Positions 1,618-11,207 of a stretch of 64,000 nt of DNA are shown piece by piece. The translations under genes and the position numbers were made by a program. This stretch comes from an uncultured Erythrobacter sp. Lineage in GTDB: Bacteria; Pseudomonadota; Alphaproteobacteria; Sphingomonadales; Sphingomonadaceae. How positions within the stretch are numbered: position 1 is the stretch's first letter; the number at the start of each line of letters is the position of its first letter. Location: positions 496,001-560,000 of the forward strand of contig NZ_OY284433.1 in assembly GCF_958304185.1 (NCBI RefSeq), given 5' to 3'. A model generated the notes under the pieces. That model was not told the DNA's origin, made no database searches, and saw only the letters and a program-made list of their open reading frames with translations.

Positions 1618-1694
1618 CGGGGAGTAGCTCAGCCTGGTAGAGCACTGTCTTCGGGAGGCAGGGGCCGGAGGTTCGAATCCTCTCTCCCCGACCA
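1618..1694 (+). tRNA. tRNA-Pro (anticodon CGG)
   Basis: A full cloverleaf can be drawn. The acceptor stem CGGGGAG pairs with CTCCCCG before A-CCA. The D arm is AGCTCAGCCTGGTAGAGC. The anticodon stem CTGTC/GGCAG carries the loop TTCGGGA with CGG at 1652-1654, and the T arm contains GGTTCGAATCC. The 3' CCA is encoded. It reads the CCG proline codon. It stands alone between thyA (divergent) and the end of the glycosyltransferase operon (convergent). Confidence 0.97.
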
Positions 1695-1831: not shown

Positions 1832-2689
1832 TTAGAGCGAGCCGCTCTTTGCGGGCCAAAAGCTCACCGCATGGTCGCGTTCGCGTTGCGCTGGCTGGCG
1901 CAGGATGCTGAGCGTGTCGTCCTGCCATGCCACCAGCCCCAGCGCGGCGAACTGTTCGAGCCAGCCTGCCATTGGCCAGAACCCGCGCTTTTCGCGGAAC
2001 CGGCGCGCATTGGCAACGATGTCCTCGAGGTGTTGCAGCGGCGGATCATAGCTCGGGTGATATTGGTGGCAGGCCAGCGCGCCGCCCAGAAAATACAGCG
2101 GCAAGCCGGCATCGCGCGCGGCAAAGCCGAAGTCGGTGTCTTCGGCCCCGTAGCCAGTAAAGCGCTCGTCGAACCCGCCGATCCGCTGGAAGGTGCTACG
2201 GCGGATGGCAAAGGCGAGCGACCAGAACAGGCCGGGATTGTCGACCTGCTCAAGCCCTTGCGCGGGAAACGGACGGACCGGGTGGACCGCACCCTTGGCA
2301 AGCAACGCAGCTTCGTCCCACGTGCCTGACGCATCGCCCGGCCCCAGATACCGCACCTCTGCGCAGACAAGCCGGTCGTGCGCGCCGATTGCGTCCGAAA
2401 GCATACCCAGACAATCGCCCATCGGGATGCAATCAACGTCGAGAAACACCAGCCGTTCGCCCTTGGCGCGGGCGGCGGCGTGGTTGCGTGCTTGCGCCAG
2501 CGGGAGACCATCGGTCTCAAGCCGCTCGAACCGCACCAGCGGATGCTGTCCCTTGAGCCGCACCGGCGTGTCACTCATATCGACCACGATGACCTCGTGC
2601 GGCTGCACCACGCTGCGCGCCACACCTTCGAGCAGGTTGACAAGATGCTCCGTCCGGTTGCGTACGAGGGTGAGGACCGACAGGCTCAT
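1832..2689 (-). CDS. family 2 glycosyltransferase, last gene of the seven-gene operon
   Basis: About 285 aa. The N-terminal GT-A fold shows SVLTLVRNRTEHL (nucleotide-binding strand), PHEVIVVDMSD, and the metal-binding FLDVDCIP in the DxD position. A later GYGAEDTDFGFAARDAG is the acidic ED motif of inverting GT2 / Glyco_transf_7C-type enzymes. It should transfer a sugar from a nucleotide sugar; donor and acceptor are unknown. The ATG at 2689 overlaps the stop of the preceding methyltransferase as ATGA, and GGGAA sits about 10 nt upstream inside that gene, so translational coupling is likely. No membrane segment is seen. Confidence 0.85.
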   Translation of the reverse strand: MSLSVLTLVRNRTEHLVNLLEGVARSVVQPHEVIVVDMSDTPVRLKGQHPLVRFERLETDGLPLAQARNHAAARAKGERLVFLDVDCIPMGDCLGMLSDAIGAHDRLVCAEVRYLGPGDASGTWDEAALLAKGAVHPVRPFPAQGLEQVDNPGLFWSLAFAIRRSTFQRIGGFDERFTGYGAEDTDFGFAARDAGLPLYFLGGALACHQYHPSYDPPLQHLEDIVANARRFREKRGFWPMAGWLEQFAALGLVAWQDDTLSILRQPAQRERDHAVSFWPAKSGSL

Positions 2690-3267
2690 CGCCGTTCCCA
2701 CAGATCGAGGCGGTAGCTTTCATGCCGCTCGGCAAGGCAGGGCGTGATTTGCCCGGATGTCCCCCGTTGAAGCGCGCCCACCGCTTCGTCAGCCGTGCAG
2801 GGGTAATCGGTCTCGCCGGTGTAATGCACCAGCACCACGCGCCCACCCGGTACAAGGTGATCGGCCAGCCATTGCGCCGCGTGGGAAAGGTCACTGGTAT
2901 CCCAGTAATAGGCAACCTCAGACATGACACACAGGTCGAACATCCCGGTGGGCGCTTCGGTGGGGAAGCTCATCTGCGCAAATGCGATACCGGGCTGCGC
3001 GCCCAGCCTTTGCTGTGCGAGAGCAAGAGCCGTTTGGCTGATGTCGATCGCCAGCAACTGATCACAAAGCCGGTGCAGCCGCTGGGTCAGCACACCATGC
3101 GCGCAGCCAATTTCAAGCGCTGATTCGTAGCTGCGATCATCCAGCGCTTTGATAGTCCGCTCGAACTTGCCCCGCTCATATTCGCTTGTGGCGAGATTCC
3201 ACGGGTCCGCATCGGCCGTGAAGATGCCTTCGAAGTAATCGGCCCCCAAGCTGCCCGCGCCGCTCAT
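2686..3267 (-). CDS. NodS-type SAM-dependent methyltransferase
   Basis: About 193 aa, class I Rossmann methyltransferase. The N-terminal DPWNLATSEYERGKFERTI segment (about residues 21-39) is typical of the NodS-like family. Motif I is ALEIGCAHG (50-58), and LLAIDISQTAL is the acidic SAM-ribose strand. In rhizobia NodS N-methylates the de-N-acetylated glucosamine of Nod factors; here only the family relation is seen, so amine methylation of a sugar is inference. The ATG at 3267 overlaps the upstream deacetylase stop as ATGA. Its own stop overlaps the following glycosyltransferase start. Confidence 0.82.
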   Translation of the reverse strand: MSGAGSLGADYFEGIFTADADPWNLATSEYERGKFERTIKALDDRSYESALEIGCAHGVLTQRLHRLCDQLLAIDISQTALALAQQRLGAQPGIAFAQMSFPTEAPTGMFDLCVMSEVAYYWDTSDLSHAAQWLADHLVPGGRVVLVHYTGETDYPCTADEAVGALQRGTSGQITPCLAERHESYRLDLWERR

Positions 3268-3929
3268 CTCGGCCAATCCACTGCGATAAGCTGGTCGGCG
3301 GGGGCCATCCGCCGCATCGAATCCGGCAGGCGGAACCCCTCACCCATGCTTGGTGTCAGCTGGCTGCGATGCGCGCTGAGCGCCCGGCGGCGCACCCCAC
3401 TCGGCATGGTGGGCGTAGCGAACCGCGTGCCGCGGCAGGCCAGATCATGCCAGACCGAATAGGTGAAAATCTGCAAAGCCCGCCGCGATTGGACGCGGGC
3501 GGCGAGTGCAAGCTGGAAAGCCGCCACATGATCGCAATGCCTGTCTCCCGGGTCCGACACTGCGAGCGCGTCAATCCGGCGGTTACGGATCATGGTCCCC
3601 AGCCGCCGTGCCGAACGTCCAAACGCTGTGCTCGCCTCATGGCTTGGGTTGCCGTCGGCCCATCCCAGCCAATCAATCGGGACTGGCCATTCAGTAAGCA
3701 GACCCAGCGCCCGCCGCGCCTCGCGCCGGCGGACAGCGCGCAGATACGGTGTGCCTTGCGGATGCGATCCGCTGCCGTCGGTGAGAAACACCACCCCGCC
3801 CAGCCGATTGCGCGCCGCCGCATGATGGATCAGCGCGCCCGCCCCCAAGGTCTCATCGTCAGGATGCGGCGCGAGCACGAGCCACCGCGCACCGCGCCAT
3901 GGGCTGCGCGCGAGCATGGCCGCCCTCAT
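3264..3929 (-). CDS. PIG-L/LmbE family deacetylase
   Basis: 221 aa. Zn-dependent de-N-acetylases of this family (PIG-L, MshB, BshB) remove acetyl from N-acetylglucosamine-type sugars. The signature PHPDDE is at residues 21-26 with D24 as the likely catalytic base. The second metal motif HCDH lies near residue 132, inside GDRHCDHVAAFQ. No signal peptide is seen, so it is cytosolic. ATGA overlaps join it to the gene on each side. The substrate is probably an N-acetylated sugar made by the operon's glycosyltransferases (inference). Confidence 0.85.
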   Translation of the reverse strand: MRAAMLARSPWRGARWLVLAPHPDDETLGAGALIHHAAARNRLGGVVFLTDGSGSHPQGTPYLRAVRRREARRALGLLTEWPVPIDWLGWADGNPSHEASTAFGRSARRLGTMIRNRRIDALAVSDPGDRHCDHVAAFQLALAARVQSRRALQIFTYSVWHDLACRGTRFATPTMPSGVRRRALSAHRSQLTPSMGEGFRLPDSMRRMAPADQLIAVDWPR

Positions 3930-5029
3930 GGCAAACTGCCGGACGGGGCAAACTCTCGCGAGAGGATGTCCTTGGCCGCCTCGTCGCGGGCGTAATCTGG
4001 GCCTGCCTGCCGCAGATACAGCGATAGATCGCGCGCAATCTTGTCCGCGCGCTGGCCATCGAAGGCGCTGCGGGTACCGAGAATGCGAGCAGCGGTCTCG
4101 ATCGCAAGAAGGCCAGCATCCTCCACAACACCGCGCGCAATGCGGGCGGTGGTGATTGCGTCGTCTGCCTCAGCGGCAGCTTTGCGGGCGGCTTCCTCCA
4201 CCCAGAACCGCGCATTCCGGGCGGCGATGTAGGCCTTGGCAAATCGTTGGCGCAGGATTGCATCTTCGCGGGCCTTGGGATGCATACCGCGCGCAGTCTC
4301 CCTGATGAGCGCCTCAACGCCGCCCAGCTGCACCGCGCAGAACCGCCACGCTCCGGCCGTGAAGCGCGGTTCACGGTCATATTCGCCTGGTTGGCCGAGC
4401 AGCATGGCGTCGGTCACTTCCATGCCTTCGAGGTCATAACTCCCGCTGACGCTGGCCCGCATTCCTCGCACTCGCCAGCCTGACAGATCGGTCCGCTCAG
4501 GATCATTGGCGCGAACAACGACAAGGCGACGCGCTTCGCCCTCGCTACCTGCCGTAACCACCGACCAGTTGATCCCGCCTGCGCCGCTGGCAAAACTTTT
4601 GCCGCCGGTTAAACGCGGGCTATCCGAGCCCACGATACGCACACCTGGGGGAGGCTCGCTCGCCCAGACGCCGAACCACGCGCCGCGCGCCAATTGCTCG
4701 CGCAGCCACAACTTTTGCGAGGCCGACCCGTACCAGCGGAACAGCAAAAGCGCATTCACATGCCCTTCGAACAGGCGCCCGACGCTGAGATCGCCGTGGC
4801 CTACCTCGCCCAGAGCCGTCAGCATCCTAGAATTGCAAGCCTCGTCATCAGCGAACGCCTCGCCGCCCGCCTCAGGCGGCGCAAAGCGGCGGTGCAGGCC
4901 GCTGGCAACCAGCAGGTCCAGACTGTCCGAGGGGAAACGCGAAACGGTGTCATAGCGCTCGCCCAGCCGCGCCAGATCGTCTGACAGGCTCGCTGCCGGA
5001 TTGCCGCGGGGTTTGGGAATGGCGGTCAT
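3926..5029 (-). CDS. acyl-CoA-dehydrogenase-fold flavoprotein, divergent
   Basis: 367 aa. The overall organisation is that of the acyl-CoA dehydrogenase superfamily: an N-terminal helical part with LHRRFAPPEAGG, a middle beta part with LTGGKSFASGAGG, and a C-terminal four-helix part ending RDLSLYLRQAGPDYARDEAA. It is divergent. The usual T-EPGAGSD segment reads ASEPPPGVRIVGSD, and the YEGT-type catalytic glutamate region is not recognisable. It may therefore not be a classical CoA-thioester dehydrogenase. The fold also includes flavin N-oxygenases acting on amino sugars (nitrososynthases). ATGA overlaps occur at both ends. Confidence 0.72.
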   Translation of the reverse strand: MTAIPKPRGNPAASLSDDLARLGERYDTVSRFPSDSLDLLVASGLHRRFAPPEAGGEAFADDEACNSRMLTALGEVGHGDLSVGRLFEGHVNALLLFRWYGSASQKLWLREQLARGAWFGVWASEPPPGVRIVGSDSPRLTGGKSFASGAGGINWSVVTAGSEGEARRLVVVRANDPERTDLSGWRVRGMRASVSGSYDLEGMEVTDAMLLGQPGEYDREPRFTAGAWRFCAVQLGGVEALIRETARGMHPKAREDAILRQRFAKAYIAARNARFWVEEAARKAAAEADDAITTARIARGVVEDAGLLAIETAARILGTRSAFDGQRADKIARDLSLYLRQAGPDYARDEAAKDILSREFAPSGSLP

Positions 5030-6069
5030 GATCGGGCCTCTCGCAGGGCTTGCGGTGCTTGGATGAATTGTTCGAGCCAGCGCGCGACGCGCTCCGCTCC
5101 GTCCCTGACTCGGAGCGCAGGGGGGCGAAGGCTCGGCTGACGCTCAGCCGCTGCGATCAGCAGCCGCCATTCGGCGGCCTCGGGCCAGCTCGCGGGAACA
5201 ATCGCGGCACCAAGTGCGGCGAGCCTTTCGGCCTTGATCTCTTGCTCATCAAAGGCGCGAGGCTCGGGAAAACAGATGAAGGGTCGCTCATGCGCAAGGA
5301 CGGCGCTGACCAGCCCATCCCCCGCCGCGCCAATGACAAGGCCCGCGCTGGCGATCTCCGCATCGGCGCCATCGACCCAGCCGGCGAATTCGAGATTGTC
5401 CGGTATTCGCGCAGGCACAACCGCAGGCCCGATCACGCGCCACTGCCGGTCCGGCACCGCAACAGCGGCGGCAGCCCATCTCGCGCCGTCAGCCGCCTCC
5501 CCGCCCCGCCCTGTGACAACCAGCACGCGGGTTGGATCGACGATGCGCGCCCGCCCCGCGGGAACGATGCCATTGGCGTAAAAGGTTTTATCCCTCACCC
5601 AGTCCGGGGTCGCCGGGTCATCCAGCGGCTCGGCAAAAGGTGCGAGCAGCGCCTGCGCCGATGCAAACGCATCGCGGTGTGGCGGATCGCTGCGTCTGCC
5701 GCTCAGTCGGACATAGACCACCGGGACGGACGCAAGCCGTGCGAGCATTGCGACTTCGACCGAGACATCGACGATCATCAGCGCAGGCTGTGTCACGGCA
5801 ATCCAATTGGCGATCAGCGCAACCCGATCGCGCACACCCTTGTGATGCAGCGGAGCGTAATGGAGCGCGGGCGGCCGTGTGGCCCCATCCCGTCCATCGA
5901 ATTGGCCATGCGGCAGTCGGTCATCGGGCAAGTCAAGGCAGGGTATTCCATTCAATCGGTCGCCCAGCCCTGTGCCGATCAACGTCATCGGCCCGCGATA
6001 GGCAGCCGCAATCGCGGCAGCGCGCTGTCTGTGGCCCTCGCCTTGATGGTGGACGTAGTATCCGATCAT
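5026..6069 (-). CDS. MurG-like (GT28/GT-B) glycosyltransferase-type protein
   Basis: 347 aa. The start YYVHHQGEGHRQRAAAI is the glycine/histidine loop of GT-B glycosyltransferases that resemble MurG and diacylglycerol glucosyltransferases. The second half has RVLVVTGRGGE, then LEFAGWVDGADAEIASAGLVIGAAG, AHERPFICFPEPRAFDEQEIKA and a C-terminal helix, matching the GT28 C-terminal donor-binding domain. No membrane segment is seen. The donor is unknown. It is the third gene of the operon, with ATGA overlaps at both ends. Confidence 0.75.
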   Translation of the reverse strand: MIGYYVHHQGEGHRQRAAAIAAAYRGPMTLIGTGLGDRLNGIPCLDLPDDRLPHGQFDGRDGATRPPALHYAPLHHKGVRDRVALIANWIAVTQPALMIVDVSVEVAMLARLASVPVVYVRLSGRRSDPPHRDAFASAQALLAPFAEPLDDPATPDWVRDKTFYANGIVPAGRARIVDPTRVLVVTGRGGEAADGARWAAAAVAVPDRQWRVIGPAVVPARIPDNLEFAGWVDGADAEIASAGLVIGAAGDGLVSAVLAHERPFICFPEPRAFDEQEIKAERLAALGAAIVPASWPEAAEWRLLIAAAERQPSLRPPALRVRDGAERVARWLEQFIQAPQALREARS

Positions 6070-6998
6070 GCCGACGATGCCCGCAATCGCTTCGGCAGGG
6101 ACATTTCGCAGGGCATGGGCGGCAACTTGGCCTCGGCCAGCATCAGCTTACCGGGACCAAGCGCCCGGCGCATCGCGCGGCGCCACAGCGCGCGAGTTTG
6201 CCAGTGCTGGAAGGCCGGAACCTTGGGGTCAACTCCATCGGTTCCGGCAGCAAGCCAGCGGCGCATTTCCTCCGCCATGCCGCCATCGGCCCTACCCGCA
6301 GGCCGAGCCGAGGTGCGGGTCCAGACGGTTTGGGGATGAATGAGCTCACCGCCCACGGCGAGCGCAGCGGCCACCAGCGCGCGGTCTTCGCCCGATGGGG
6401 TCAAGGGAACGCCCCCCGCAGCACGATACAGCCCGACCGTCAGGGCTATGCTAGCGCCAGTGTGATCGCCGTGGCGGGGAGGCAGGTCCCACGGAACGGG
6501 GTCGACCGCATCCTCGATCTCGCGGACCTTGCTCCAGTAATCGTCGAACCGATCGCGCAGATCGAACAGCAGCGGCCATTTGTGGGCTTCCATCTCGTCA
6601 AGTTCGATCCGACCGCCGATGATCCGCATCGGCCCTGCGTTCGCCAGATTGGCTTCGAGCCAGTCCGCCGGCGGGCGGCAATCCGCATCGGTGCTGACGA
6701 GCAACGCATCGTTATCACCGAGCCATTCTGCGCCAAGTTCCATCGCTGCCCGCCGCGCTGATCCGGCATGAGCAAGCTCCGGCGGAAATTCGCAGGTCAG
6801 TAGGTTCAGCCGTATCCGCCCTTCGGCCTTTGCAACCGCTGCCTGCGCAGCCTCGGCACTCCCGTCGGTCGAGTTGTTGATGCACAATGCGACATTGATC
6901 GGCGACGGCAAGGTCTGCTGCGCCAAGGCCTCAAGCAGCACAGGCAATCGCTTCGCCTCATTGCGGGCCGGGACACAAACGACGACCGGCCGCGTCAT
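6066..6998 (-). CDS. family 2 glycosyltransferase
   Basis: About 310 aa. A GT-A fold begins with VVVCVPARNEAKRLPVLLEAL. NVALCINNSTDGS follows and the DxD motif is STDADCRPPADW. The segment PRHGDHTGASIALTVGLYRAAGGVP and the acidic PSGEDRALVAAAL complete a normal GT2 order. The open frame extends upstream to 7112. However, the ATG at 6998 overlaps the upstream stop as ATGA exactly as at the other five junctions, and the conserved domain begins directly after it, so I chose that start. Confidence 0.82.
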   Translation of the reverse strand: MTRPVVVCVPARNEAKRLPVLLEALAQQTLPSPINVALCINNSTDGSAEAAQAAVAKAEGRIRLNLLTCEFPPELAHAGSARRAAMELGAEWLGDNDALLVSTDADCRPPADWLEANLANAGPMRIIGGRIELDEMEAHKWPLLFDLRDRFDDYWSKVREIEDAVDPVPWDLPPRHGDHTGASIALTVGLYRAAGGVPLTPSGEDRALVAAALAVGGELIHPQTVWTRTSARPAGRADGGMAEEMRRWLAAGTDGVDPKVPAFQHWQTRALWRRAMRRALGPGKLMLAEAKLPPMPCEMSLPKRLRASSA

Positions 6999-8101
6999 GC
7001 GCTGAGGGCCATCGCGGCTCTGCGGCCTGGCTGCTGAGCAAAATCCGCTGGCCCGCGCACAAGGCGGCGATAAAGGCGCTCGTAGGAATCGACCATCCGG
7101 TGTGCATTGCAATGCTCCTCGGCCCGCCGGCGGCAGGCGGCGCGATTAATGGTCAGCGCGGCGCGAATGGCGGCGGCAAGGCTCGCCACATCATCAGGCT
7201 CGGCCAAGTCGCCACAGGTCTCATCCACGATCGCCGGAATCCCACCCCGACGAAACGCAGCGACCGGCGTGCCGCAGGAAAGTGCCTCGGCCACGACGAG
7301 ACCATAGGGCTCCTCCCAGCACGGAGTGCAAAGCGCCACGCTGGCACCACCGATCAGTTTGGCGAGGTCGCGGTGCGCCAAGTGCCCAAGGTAGGTGGCG
7401 TCGTCACTTAGCCGCGGCGCGATCGACTCGGCGAAGTAGGCGAGGTTGGAACGCGGCCCGGCGATCTTGAGCGGAAGGCCAACAGTGCGGGCCGCGTCAA
7501 TGGCAAGGTGTAATCCCTTCTCCGGGACAATCCGCCCATACCACACCAGATAGCGATCAGCGACGGCCTGCGGGCTTAAGGGGAAAAGATCGAGATCGAT
7601 CCCATTGGGGATGACGCTATCGACCCCTGTGACATCCTGCCACAGATCGGCGGTCGCCTGCGAAACAGCGACGAGATGGCTCGAGTTGCGGCCCAGACGC
7701 ACGCCGCTTTCGAGCCAGCAGAACGGCGGTGTGTGCAGCGTTGTGACGGTCGGCGCACGCAGCGTCGCGGCCATGGTCAGCGGCAGATAGTGCAGCGAAT
7801 TGTTGTGAATGATGTCAAAAGACCGGCTCTGAAGATCGGTCATCAGGCGCAGGTAGGCGTGGTGTTCGCGAAAGAAGGCGACATTGCCCGCTTCGGCCAG
7901 ACCGGTTTCCAGCAGCGATGTTTCTTCGCAGATCGCTTCAATTCCCAGTGCAGGATCGGATGCCAGCGACGCAAACAAAGTCACATCATGGCCGCGCTCG
8001 CGCAGCGATTTGGCCAGCAGATGCGTGTGCATTTCGAGGCCACCGGCAAAGGGCTCGGCAATCGCGTATTTGAGATGAGCGATAATCGCGATCTTCAACA
8101 T
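6995..8101 (-). CDS. family 4 glycosyltransferase, first gene of the operon
   Basis: About 368 aa, GT-B retaining family 4. It starts MLKIAIIAHLKYAIAEPFAGGLEMH with the glycine loop before HLLAKSLRERGHDVTLFAS. The C-terminal half has YLVWYGRIVPEKGLHLAI and the EX7E motif in CWEEPYGLVVAEALSCGTPV, which binds the nucleotide-sugar donor. MshA and BshA belong to the same family, but nothing here fixes the acceptor. The ATG at 8101 has GAGG 8 nt upstream and matches the family N-terminus better than the longer frame from 8140. It leads the coupled operon. Confidence 0.85.
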   Translation of the reverse strand: MLKIAIIAHLKYAIAEPFAGGLEMHTHLLAKSLRERGHDVTLFASLASDPALGIEAICEETSLLETGLAEAGNVAFFREHHAYLRLMTDLQSRSFDIIHNNSLHYLPLTMAATLRAPTVTTLHTPPFCWLESGVRLGRNSSHLVAVSQATADLWQDVTGVDSVIPNGIDLDLFPLSPQAVADRYLVWYGRIVPEKGLHLAIDAARTVGLPLKIAGPRSNLAYFAESIAPRLSDDATYLGHLAHRDLAKLIGGASVALCTPCWEEPYGLVVAEALSCGTPVAAFRRGGIPAIVDETCGDLAEPDDVASLAAAIRAALTINRAACRRRAEEHCNAHRMVDSYERLYRRLVRGPADFAQQPGRRAAMALSA

Positions 8102-8179
8102 GGAGCCTCGGGGGGTTGAGCGGCCAGACTTCACCACCATCAGCCATATCGTCCGGCCTGTCCCTAACCCCCTAAGTGA

Positions 8180-8302
8180 TCATGCGTTTGGAACATCAAG
8201 ACCCGCTCCGGTGATGCCCGACGACACGTGCAGGCGACGGCTGGCAAAGGCCTTGGTCGTATCCCGGCGCTCGGTACGGGTGGGGCAAGTTTCAGACGCC
8301 AT
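8180..8302 (-). CDS. possible 40-aa ORF upstream of the glycosyltransferase operon
   Basis: An ATG at 8302 opens a 40-codon frame ending in TGA at 8180, with GGAGA 8 nt upstream. The predicted peptide begins MASETCPTRTERRD and ends GAGLDVPNA. It is rich in Ser, Thr and Arg, with a single Cys and no membrane segment. It lies 78 bp before the first glycosyltransferase gene on the same strand, so it could be the first gene of that operon or a leader peptide. I do not recognise it. Only the ribosome-binding site and position support it. Confidence 0.35.
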   Translation of the reverse strand: MASETCPTRTERRDTTKAFASRRLHVSSGITGAGLDVPNA

Positions 8303-8577: not shown

Positions 8578-8605
8578 GAAAAAAGCCCCGGTTTCCCGAG
8601 GCTTT
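8578..8605 (-). terminator. rho-independent terminator after the 12-codon ORF
   Basis: Read on the minus strand, AAAGCC then CGG pair with CCG then GGCTTT around a GAAA tetraloop, with one mismatch, followed at once by a run of T. It lies 24 bp after the stop of the 12-codon ORF, which gives a transcript of roughly 130 nt if it starts near 8710. Confidence 0.8.
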
Positions 8606-8628
8606 CTCCTATATCTGACGGAGCCGTC

Positions 8629-8667
8629 TTAGCGGCTGCCAAACATGTGTGTGATCCAACCCCACAT
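8629..8667 (-). CDS. 12-aa Trp-rich microprotein ORF
   Basis: The frame encodes MWGWITHMFGSR and a TAA stop. The Shine-Dalgarno AGGAG (8676-8680) is 8 nt from the ATG, the ideal spacing. The transcript is closed by a clear terminator. The peptide has two Trp, a Phe, two Met and a C-terminal Arg, and would be small, amphipathic and possibly membrane-active. The gene starts 61 bp after the EAL gene on the same strand, so it could be made from its own promoter or by read-through. It may be a translated peptide, or the ORF may be part of a small regulatory RNA. It is too short for homology-based calling. Confidence 0.5.
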   Translation of the reverse strand: MWGWITHMFGSR

Positions 8668-8675
8668 AAAATACA

Positions 8676-8702
8676 CTCCTATCAGCGCAAAAGCTGTAGG
8701 AG
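8676..8702 (-). promoter_or_regulatory. hairpin sequestering the Shine-Dalgarno of the 12-codon ORF
   Basis: On the minus strand CTCCTA-CAGC pairs with GCTG-TAGGAG around a six-base TTTTGC loop, with one bulged A, giving ten base pairs. The whole AGGAG ribosome-binding site is in the 3' arm. This arrangement suggests translation controlled by melting, as in an RNA thermometer, or by a trans-acting RNA. A loose TTTACA/TAATGT pair further upstream could be the promoter. Confidence 0.55.
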
Positions 8703-8727: not shown

Positions 8728-11097
8728 TCAACTGTAAATTGCAGTTCGTCGTCCACCCATCATCAGCAGCAGCTCTGGCATCGAAATCGCACGCGAGAAG
8801 AGGTAGCCTTGCGCCTGATCGCATCCCATTGCTGTCAAGGCGGCTGCGACCGAAATATCCTCAACGCCTTCTGCGACGACGATCTTGCCAAGCGAATGAG
8901 CAATCTCGATCGTGGCGCGCACCACAGCGCGGCTTTCCTCGGATGTGGCCATGTGCTGCACGAAACGCTTATCGATCTTGAGCTCGGAGCTCGGCAGCTT
9001 CTCGATGTACTCGAGATTGGATTGCCCGGTGCCGAAATCGTCGATCGATAGGCCGATGCCACGCGCTTTCAATGCCGCGATCTGCGGAGCGATTCGGTCA
9101 TCCTCCAGCTTGGCGGTTTCAGTCAGTTCCAGCGTCAGGTTTTCAGGCGGGAAGTCAAAGCGCCCCAGCAAGGTCATGATATCGAACAACAGGTGCGTGT
9201 CCGACAGGCTTTTGGCCGACATGTTGACCGCCAGCTTGAAGCGCGGATCAAGCGCAATCGCCTGTTTGCCCTCAAGCAGCGCCTTCTCCATCACAACCAG
9301 AGTCAGCTCGTTGATCCGGTCGCCTGCTTCGGCTGCGAGCACCAGATCCTGCGGGTTGACCGGCTCCTCACCCTCGGGCTGCCAGCGAATCAAAGTTTCC
9401 GCACCGACGATCCGGCCTGACGCCAGGTCGATCTTGGGCTGGTAGGCCACACCGATATCGCGGTTGCGCAGGCCCTTTTCCAACACCTTGATCAGTTGAA
9501 GTCGATTATTGCGCGCTTCGAGATAGGCAGCGTCATTGATGATGAAGCGCACCCCACGGTTCGCCGCTTCGTCTGCCGCCTGCATCGCCTTCTTGATGCG
9601 CGAGGCGACCGGCAATTCGTGATTGGTATCGATCCCGAGCGCAGGGGCGCTATTGGATGACTGCCAATCATAGCTGATCGCAGTCTTGAGCATCATCGCA
9701 AGCCCATCGGCATGGCGTTCGAGTTCGCCATTCTCCATGCGCGGTGCGAGCCAGACCAGCAGGTCCCGCTCGAAAGCGACGTCGCCGACTTCGCCCGGCC
9801 CCTTCACATAGGCGATCAGCGTGTTGACGAACTCCCCGATCTCGCGGGCCGTCCATTCTTCCGAAAACTCGGCGAGATTGGCAATCTTGAGCGCGTAGAC
9901 ATCGCGCTCCTCGCTCGGTCGATCCGAGGCGATGGCCGACGTCGTCATGGCATCGACATCGCTGCTGTAATACTTGCGATTGATCCTTTGGAACCCGATG
10001 GCCGCAGCCCCCATGGCCAGCAGTGCGGACATGATGTCGATATTGACGGTGAATTCGTCGAGCACGAATGTCGCGATCAGCAACCCGAACGACGTTATCA
10101 GCAAGGAGTTCGACGCGCGCCGCCGGCTCACCACTTGCACCGCCATGGCGAGCGTAGCCAGGAGCATCGCCGGGTACCACATCAAGTCAAGCGGCACGCC
10201 GCGCTTCAGTGTGTGCGCACCAAGAACATGAAAATAAGAGCCCGGCACTTTCGTGTTCGGGCGGAACGGCAAGAAGTAGTAGTCGCTCGATCCGAAGAAG
10301 GCCTGCCCGATCACCACGTTCTTGCCGCGCAACTCGGCCGCCGGTACGCGGCCATTCAGCACATCAACATAACTGAACGAGGGAACGGTCGAGGCATCGA
10401 ACGCCGTGTCGGGCCGATAGAGTCGCTCCGGGCCCTGGTATTCAGCCAGGACGGCAGAGATTGACCCCTCTTTTTTGCCGCCGAGGTCAATCGAGGTCGG
10501 GAAGATCACCGACAGGCCGAAAAGATTGGCGCGCCCATTCATCGCCGCGAGATTGACGGTTTGGCGGAATTCCGGGAGCGGCGCGATCTCGTCGACCCTC
10601 TGGAAGCCGATATCGCTTGCCGGGACAACCCCCAGCCACACATTGCCTTTATGCCGCGCCAGCATTTCGGCAAACATCGCGTCGGACTTCGGCGTTTCGG
10701 GATCGGCATGCGCGCGGTCGAACACCACCCGGCGCACGCCGGAAGCGATCAGCGTATCGACCACCTTGGTATCTTGCACCCGGTTGGGAAGGTTGCGCTT
10801 GTTGGCGGCAAGTGTCTTGTCGTCGATCGCGATCATCACAACATCGCGGGGCGCGGGGCGGGAACGCAGCTCTGCGCGCGCGGCGCGGTAGACATCTTCG
10901 AGCGGCAGTGGAAGCTCGATTACCGAGGACATCACCCCGAACAGCACCGCTAGAATTGCGACTTTGGTGCGTTTGCGGCGCAGCAAGGCGGCACCCGAAC
11001 GCTGCGCAAGTTCCTGCTTGAATCCAGCGACTTCCTCGCCGGCCAAGCCGAACTTGCGCCGTATCGTGTCGGCCAGAGACTGAAGCTTTCCGAACAT
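8728..11097 (-). CDS. CHASE2 sensor with degenerate GGDEF-like segment and EAL phosphodiesterase domain
   Basis: About 789 aa. One membrane segment lies near residues 45-60, then a periplasmic CHASE2 domain (about 60-300) with VVMIAIDDKTLAANKRNLPNR, then three membrane helices (about 310-380). A region at about 395-530 lies where a GGDEF domain would be but has no GGDEF motif. The EAL domain runs from about 545 to the end. Its motif reads AETLIRW rather than EAL. VNMSAKSL, LELTET, IDDFGTG, LKIDKRFV, VAEGVE and QAQGYLFSRAI keep the metal ligands and catalytic lysine and glutamates. It probably hydrolyses c-di-GMP in response to a periplasmic cue. ATG at 11097 is preferred over the adjacent TTG. 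Confidence 0.85.
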   Translation of the reverse strand: MFGKLQSLADTIRRKFGLAGEEVAGFKQELAQRSGAALLRRKRTKVAILAVLFGVMSSVIELPLPLEDVYRAARAELRSRPAPRDVVMIAIDDKTLAANKRNLPNRVQDTKVVDTLIASGVRRVVFDRAHADPETPKSDAMFAEMLARHKGNVWLGVVPASDIGFQRVDEIAPLPEFRQTVNLAAMNGRANLFGLSVIFPTSIDLGGKKEGSISAVLAEYQGPERLYRPDTAFDASTVPSFSYVDVLNGRVPAAELRGKNVVIGQAFFGSSDYYFLPFRPNTKVPGSYFHVLGAHTLKRGVPLDLMWYPAMLLATLAMAVQVVSRRRASNSLLITSFGLLIATFVLDEFTVNIDIMSALLAMGAAAIGFQRINRKYYSSDVDAMTTSAIASDRPSEERDVYALKIANLAEFSEEWTAREIGEFVNTLIAYVKGPGEVGDVAFERDLLVWLAPRMENGELERHADGLAMMLKTAISYDWQSSNSAPALGIDTNHELPVASRIKKAMQAADEAANRGVRFIINDAAYLEARNNRLQLIKVLEKGLRNRDIGVAYQPKIDLASGRIVGAETLIRWQPEGEEPVNPQDLVLAAEAGDRINELTLVVMEKALLEGKQAIALDPRFKLAVNMSAKSLSDTHLLFDIMTLLGRFDFPPENLTLELTETAKLEDDRIAPQIAALKARGIGLSIDDFGTGQSNLEYIEKLPSSELKIDKRFVQHMATSEESRAVVRATIEIAHSLGKIVVAEGVEDISVAAALTAMGCDQAQGYLFSRAISMPELLLMMGGRRTAIYS

Positions 11098-11207
11098 CAA
11101 ACGCGCATTCCCGAGGGCAAACCCAAGCTTGTCCCTAGGATACGTTGGTTAATTCATCGCAAACGACAGGCGCAGCACTGTCCTGCACACCGACCCAAAC
11201 AGCGCGG

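Follow-up and report, generated by a model that had tools for sequence, protein, structure and literature searches.

In the Nod-factor pathway a GT2 glycosyltransferase (NodC) works with the deacetylase NodB and the N-methyltransferase NodS, and in the mycothiol (MshA/MshB) and bacillithiol (BshA/BshB) pathways a soluble glycosyltransferase and a PIG-L deacetylase lead to a small protective glycoside. Here we analyse an operon of seven minus-strand genes, running from 8101 to 1832, in a 64,000-nucleotide stretch of DNA from an uncultured Erythrobacter sp. (contig NZ_OY284433.1, positions 496,001 to 560,000), hereafter the window. On sequence evidence, this operon is the enlarged form of a wider four-gene core that consists of GT2a, a GT-A-fold glycosyltransferase (6066..6998), a flavoprotein with the acyl-CoA dehydrogenase (ACAD) fold, probably a flavin monooxygenase (3926..5029), a PIG-L de-N-acetylase (3264..3929) and a NodS-like S-adenosylmethionine (SAM) methyltransferase (2686..3267).

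With Nod-factor modification the operon has in common the logic of GT2 transfer, deacetylation and N-methylation, and its methyltransferase is related to NodS. It differs in that the deacetylase is of the PIG-L and not the NodB type and in that a flavoprotein is added; no NodA or NodC match was obtained among the seven operon proteins. The likeness to mycothiol and bacillithiol synthesis lies in the soluble glycosyltransferase and the PIG-L enzyme, whereas the core glycosyltransferase belongs to GT2, not GT4. The flavoprotein shares its fold with DszC, TdsC, MsuC and KijD3. Group D flavin monooxygenases and the N-hydroxylations that they carry out are described in excerpts of two papers (PMC6165268, PMC10696468). 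In Acinetobacter baumannii, a table excerpt lists a glycosyltransferase, a SAM methyltransferase, LmbE and an acyl-CoA-dehydrogenase-related protein under adjacent tags (ACICU_02432-02435) that share one letter, which we take to mean one operon, and assigns no function to them there (PMC5660220). Likened by annotation, these genes follow the order of the Sulfitobacter copy of the core; unlike in the window operon, no further glycosyltransferase stands beside them in that table. The original prediction knew of no characterised pathway with this set of genes, and our targeted searches of open-licence papers likewise found no described locus.

The four-gene core and its seven-gene form

The flavoprotein was searched for in 296 genomes of the window's order. 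Any match (E 1e-3) was obtained in 47. Of these, 24, among them the source genome, count as clear members with E 1.1e-30 or lower, and the remaining 23 have E-values of 5.4e-8 or higher. A PIG-L profile (E 1e-25) matched 24 of the 296 genomes, and these are the identical 24; this exact match makes the cassette a well-defined target. All 12 genomes matched by the GT2a profile, among 186 searched, are flavoprotein-positive, and they are apparently every positive in that subset. The methyltransferase profile (E 1e-25) also matched 24 genomes, 20 of them flavoprotein-positive, so that by profile searches its association with the core is strong, not exclusive. In nearly all member loci of the order, PIG-L, the NodS-like gene and GT2a adjoin the flavoprotein gene. 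A tblastn search placed the four core genes together within 6 kb in 18 of the 20 wide order loci, in 7 of the 9 plasmid loci and in 32 of 80 contig loci, the last being the best 80 of 438 flavoprotein relatives from a scan of named genome contigs.

Within the core, order and strand vary: PIG-L or GT2a can be divergent, NodS and PIG-L can precede the flavoprotein, and the NodS-like protein and the flavoprotein are naturally fused in one case (L018 / L174, order genome G213). Pairwise distances of the core proteins correlate (r 0.72-0.89): for none of the six pairs did any of 300 permutations reach the observed value. Part of the correlation comes from the common descent of the hosts. Around the core, no recurrent neighbour was found (maximum 9 of 86 loci); a few small clusters resemble spurious antisense open reading frames (ORFs). 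A Gfo/Idh/MocA-type oxidoreductase gene was seen near the core in 5 of 109 loci (L034, L035, L052, L069, L174).

The original prediction treated the seven genes as one equal set. Its ORFs were all recovered, and each of the six four-base ATGA overlaps reads in the sequence exactly where it had been placed, yet only four of the genes form a constant core; the remaining three are mainly the enlargement of one clade. These extensions encode a GT4 glycosyltransferase, the first gene (6995..8101; PF13439 81.3 bits, PF00534 71.9 bits; an alternative start at 8140 is possible), a MurG-like glycosyltransferase (5026..6069; weak GT28 C-terminal match, PF04101 22.5 bits, cut-off 22) and GT2b, the last gene (1832..2689; PF00535 43.0 bits, PF02709 30.7 bits), and homologues of each were found in the seven-gene loci. 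Family names given from the letters alone stood for GT4, GT2, PIG-L and the NodS type, all over their Pfam cut-offs, whereas the MurG-like name is marginal. The overlaps suggest translational coupling of the seven genes; the fixed stoichiometry that had been drawn from them does not follow from overlaps alone.

All seven genes occur in the window's order in eight loci: the window, three other genomes of the order and four Novosphingobium/Sphingobium plasmid loci. The arrangement, when sought across other bacteria, is therefore not peculiar to one strain (seven loci besides the window). In the four homologous plasmid operons, 21 of 23 scored junctions overlap by annotated coordinates; in one of them (L033) the annotation splits the MurG-like gene in two, which left one junction unscored, and the last junction overlaps with the annotated start. 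The flavoproteins of the seven-gene loci form one group in a quick tree of 83 rows (Shimodaira-Hasegawa-like approximate likelihood ratio test, SH-aLRT, 99), where the rows nearest to the window come from plasmids of Sphingobium xenophagum and Novosphingobium resinovorum that are both typed conjugative. Among 22 other sampled genomes of the window's genus, the family was found in one (G207), in a more distant form. A Hyphomicrobiales contig (L042) carries the extended gene set in rearranged order.

Upstream of the operon, a 40-residue ATG-start ORF lies on the minus strand at 8180-8302, directly before the GT4 gene, and the region at roughly 8580-8680 contains a short ORF (MWGWITHMFGSR) as well as a GC-rich hairpin that has a run of T.

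The core enzymes

The name given to the flavoprotein from the letters fell just short of the Pfam cut-off (PF00441, 21.6 bits against 22.4), and the ACAD fold was confirmed by a structure model (mean predicted local distance difference test score, pLDDT, 86.5). An 11-member profile compared with PDB placed DszC, MsuC and TdsC first, then acyl-CoA dehydrogenases, with sugar nitrososynthases lower; with the model, the 16 best Foldseek matches were 5gj7, 5z8t, TdsC, DszC and MsuC. The sugar nitrososynthase/KijD3 structures 3mxl and 3m9v were matched by the profile, and 3m9v stands at fold rank 48. By profile and model, the protein thus combines the ACAD fold with nearest known relatives that are probably the group D flavin monooxygenases, by a narrow margin over dehydrogenases. 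In an alignment of family members and 32 ordinary relatives taken from other loci, 25 of these relatives have the catalytic Glu of the dehydrogenases (EG[TS] motif); at this column 31 of 32 family members have Pro, and the window protein has Ala. This column adjoins an LRQ that is invariant in the family, and R85, E88, G89, H90, Q341 and D345 are invariant or nearly so in 110 rows. Identity with group D enzymes is about 20%, and the R-x-x-E-G-H and LRQ..D motifs are specific to the flavoprotein family. In our reading of the profile alignment, two His positions of DszC, presumably catalytic, are Arg in the flavoprotein.

The flavoproteins of Deinococcus radiodurans and Deinococcus proteolyticus (L182:7543-9882, L034:10642-12885) bear a long N-terminal extension that looks glycoside-hydrolase-like by eye; against Pfam it gave sub-threshold matches to GH53 and GH42, none over cut-off. 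Relatives of this extension were seen near the core in L054 and L104. In Gloeothece (L186:7240-9862), a distant flavoprotein relative on a long branch, which may represent a different family, stands beside a flavin mononucleotide (FMN) reductase and a methyltransferase.

The PIG-L protein scores 73.1 bits against PF02585 (cut-off 28.2) and its HPDDE and DxHxDH metal motifs are intact, the motif positions being at least 96% conserved in 68 rows; conservation is seen in a set of 13 rows as well. A second PIG-L gene over the Pfam cut-off lies elsewhere in the source genome (G000:C1:1829998-1830375). The methyltransferase scores 69.1 bits against PF05401 (cut-off 24) and, in PDB, 77.7 bits against 4isc and 56.1 bits against NodS (3ofj); it has the DPW, ER and EV-YY positions in common with solved NodS. 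GT2a (PF00535, 33.8 bits) has T103-D104-A105-D106 and E204-D205 invariant in 27 rows, and its AlphaFold model (pLDDT 87.1) matches, among others, PcManGT, chondroitin polymerase, TarS and TarP in Foldseek. These matches are too mixed to assign a product class from the fold, and we gave up the attempt.

Distribution and genomic setting

Among Alphaproteobacteria the flavoprotein family was found in 6 of 385 genomes (at least 242 bits, the next match being 106 bits; matches of 75-106 bits were taken as ordinary acyl-CoA dehydrogenases), and its distribution is therefore patchy; across the phylum 14 of 398 genomes pass E 1e-40. Most of the best 80 contig loci come from Hyphomicrobiales; the others belong to Acetobacteraceae and their relatives, to a few further groups and, once, to Rhodanobacter. 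The core was recorded on plasmids, in Cyanobacteria and in Deinococcus, plasmid matches including Novosphingobium, Sphingobium, Sulfitobacter, Paracoccus, Bradyrhizobium, Komagataeibacter, Roseivivax, Deinococcus and Nostoc. It is complete in Komagataeibacter, Paracoccus, Roseivivax and Deinococcus sp. NW-56; one Deinococcus locus (L183) has the complete core.

The 3' end of the window operon adjoins a tRNA-Pro (CGG) gene (1618..1694, plus strand), which marks a genus-variable spot whose far border is an EAL-domain gene (8728-11100). Six same-genus relatives keep the order ThyA, tRNA-Pro(CGG), EAL gene with different cargo, which places the operon in a variable spot. The distance between the tRNA and the EAL gene is 7.0 kb in the window and ranges from 0.27 to 13.0 kb in these relatives. 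None of the seven operon proteins was matched at their spot, where the cargo consists, for example, of serine recombinase and RepB-type genes (L225), TonB receptors (L227) or almost nothing (L229). No convincing flanking repeats were found at the tRNA-Pro site, and the base composition of the operon does not differ strikingly.

Carriage by phages was considered and dropped: viral contigs gave 21 pattern matches and zero relatives, and the two matches in a phage collection, at 28.5% identity over 40% of the query, were not counted as members of the flavoprotein family. An anti-phage defence system was likewise rejected, PADLOC returning one weak partial match (mad2), to the methyltransferase only.

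Part of the family lies in a setting suggestive of stress protection. Of the 20 order loci (mean 15.4 kb), 7 contain a catalase-like gene; among contig loci the count is 6 of 80, and among plasmid loci 4 of 9, two of these four being the source of the catalase queries. Because catalase is present in only 10 of 60 order genomes, chance alone would put one in about 0.1% of 15-kb loci. The non-homologous end joining (NHEJ) genes Ku or LigD lie near the core in 2 of 80 contig, 1 of 20 order and 2 of 9 plasmid loci, the last two having supplied the queries. The Roseivivax copy adjoins a manganese catalase and a universal stress protein. A strict GGAAC-N16/17-CGTT box, which we take to be the EcfG (general stress) consensus, is present within 300 bases of the first gene in 14 of 161 regions; in random control stretches taken from these loci, coding DNA included, the count is 39 of 8050. 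Half of the 14 positive regions belong to Ancylobacter or close kin and the rest to seven other alphaproteobacterial lineages. Stress-type neighbours and promoters are thus statistically shown in part of the family, not at the window operon. In A. baumannii, the excerpted table gives a 31- to 62-fold decrease of ACICU_02432-02435 in colistin-dependent mutants, together with a decrease of catalase ACICU_01426 and of trehalose synthesis genes (PMC5660220), and an excerpt of another paper has the same four functions flanking blsA (PMC6240043).

What could the cassette make?

The core moves between distantly related bacteria, several of which have it beside stress-protection genes, and it may therefore make a modified sugar compound that aids survival under stress. 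Our preferred reading, a tentative one to which we give as a whole, horizontal acquisition of the operon included, a probability of roughly 0.45, is that of a four-enzyme cassette, horizontally acquired and enlarged, whose cytosolic product is a modified amino-sugar conjugate that serves stress protection. GT2a would add an N-acetylated amino sugar to an acceptor, PIG-L would then take off the acetyl group, the NodS-like enzyme would methylate the freed amine, and the flavoprotein, acting as a reduced-flavin monooxygenase, would oxygenate the product, perhaps at that nitrogen; in the seven-gene version GT4, the MurG-like enzyme and GT2b would attach further sugars. The conserved unit, the co-occurrence of its genes, their variable location, the fold, the intact deacetylase motifs and the missing dehydrogenase Glu are features of the sequences. 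From the families we infer the sugar, the acceptor, the order of steps, the oxygenation and the protective role; the scheme of the original prediction (add sugar, deacetylate, N-methylate, oxidise) fits the family assignments and the core, and its chemistry is of this second kind.

Several observations weigh against this reading. Use of UDP-N-acetylglucosamine by GT2a is unproven, because the protein resembles many unrelated glycosyltransferases, and the methyltransferase, at 76.5 bits against the equivalog cut-off of 300 of NCBIfam NF041650, is a relative of NodS and not a member. Four flavoprotein-positive genomes (G148, G199, G282, G294) fall under the threshold of the methyltransferase profile, and four flavoprotein-negative ones (G146, G209, G248, G281) match it inside proteins of about 1000 residues. 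PIG-L is missing within 6 kb in 42 of the 80 contig loci, some of which are short contigs and many Methylobacterium; on the supporting side, in 12 of 12 Methylobacteriaceae genomes without a flavoprotein-adjacent PIG-L, hand-chosen among the best contig loci, a genome-wide search for PIG-L and GT2a found both encoded elsewhere (PIG-L at least 309 bits). In the stretches fetched from Deinococcus, D. radiodurans has the flavoprotein, PIG-L and the NodS-like gene, GT2a not being found there, and D. proteolyticus the flavoprotein and PIG-L, with neither GT2a nor NodS found. The top fold match of the flavoprotein, 5gj7, is titled a putative acyl-CoA dehydrogenase, true dehydrogenases rank close behind the monooxygenases and reach the same TM-scores, and the operon holds no flavin reductase gene. 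The hydropathy of the MurG-like protein peaks at 1.74, so that membrane association is possible, and a major facilitator superfamily (MFS) transporter near the core in 6 of 109 loci (L035, L039, L040, L081, L082, L110) could indicate export. As to stress, neither the window operon nor the other seven-gene loci have the promoter box in their upstream regions, within the window nothing related to the catalase, Ku or LigD queries was found, and the one catalase match of the source genome lies about 1.46 Mb from the operon. Orthology of the Acinetobacter genes to the core family rests on annotation, and the excerpted desiccation transcriptome of another Acinetobacter does not mention the cassette and has acyl-CoA dehydrogenases and catalases down or unremarkable (PMC13130816).

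Four glycosyltransferases in one operon would also suit a surface-glycan locus, in which an oligosaccharide for lipopolysaccharide (LPS), capsule or exopolysaccharide is decorated by PIG-L, the methyltransferase and the flavoprotein. The Paracoccus copy, in which three glycosyltransferase genes precede the flavoprotein and one more follows the methyltransferase, fits this as well, as do the MFS genes of the six loci and the PIG-L gene in a Pseudomonas LPS core cluster (excerpt of PMC8005017). We nevertheless consider it unlikely, if a serious contender: none of the seven proteins matched a flippase, polymerase, ligase or ATP-binding cassette (ABC) exporter, the core has a single glycosyltransferase and, in a hydropathy check of its four proteins, no likely membrane helix, no non-core neighbour recurs in more than nine of 86 loci, and catalase and NHEJ genes are among the neighbours in some loci. 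The same MFS genes, which may serve as exporter or importer of the product, and the patchy, mobile distribution would accord with a specialised metabolite, namely a bioactive glycoside for export with an amine that undergoes N-methylation and N-oxygenation in the manner of nitro- and nitroso-sugar antibiotics, and the profile matches to sugar nitrososynthases and KijD3 (3mxl, 3m9v) point the same way. That the seven proteins gave no polyketide, peptide or nucleoside diphosphate (NDP)-deoxysugar match, that part of the family has stress-type neighbours and that the copies are spread over many unrelated genera with variable flanks makes this rather improbable.

Should the flavoprotein be a true acyl-CoA or acyl-acyl carrier protein (ACP) dehydrogenase, as its fold with many close dehydrogenase matches would allow, the product might be a glycolipid with a deacetylated, methylated sugar headgroup. 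The replaced Glu (Pro in 31 of 32 family members, Ala in the window), the monooxygenases as best profile and fold matches, and the operon's want of an acyltransferase or carrier-protein match leave this improbable. A mycothiol- or bacillithiol-like thiol pathway built on GT4 and PIG-L was rejected on equivalog scores, which lie far below the cut-offs (BshA 42.8 against 273.7, MshA 37.6 against 462.5, BshB1 43.2 against 182.5); the two proteins are weakly related to BshA/MshA and BshB1, but the operon gave no cysteine ligase or acetyltransferase match and GT4 is outside the four-gene core, and we regard it as very improbable.

Tolerance to drying, radiation and oxidants is usually credited to trehalose, catalase and DNA repair. 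The four-gene unit is real, conserved and mobile, with a stress-linked context in part of its range. A bolder form of our preferred reading, which we hold to be a long shot, is that its product represents a new class of cytosolic protectant, a glycoside whose amino sugar is both N-methylated and N-oxygenated (as hydroxylamine or nitrone) and would trap radicals when cells are dried, irradiated or under oxidative stress, with the cassette carried among bacteria by plasmids and parts of it present in D. radiodurans. If the flavoprotein oxygenates the sugar nitrogen, the chemistry would be new to stress physiology. A mobile four-gene pathway beside stress genes in several lineages, with copies in Deinococcus, would be an overlooked part of the bacterial tolerance toolkit.

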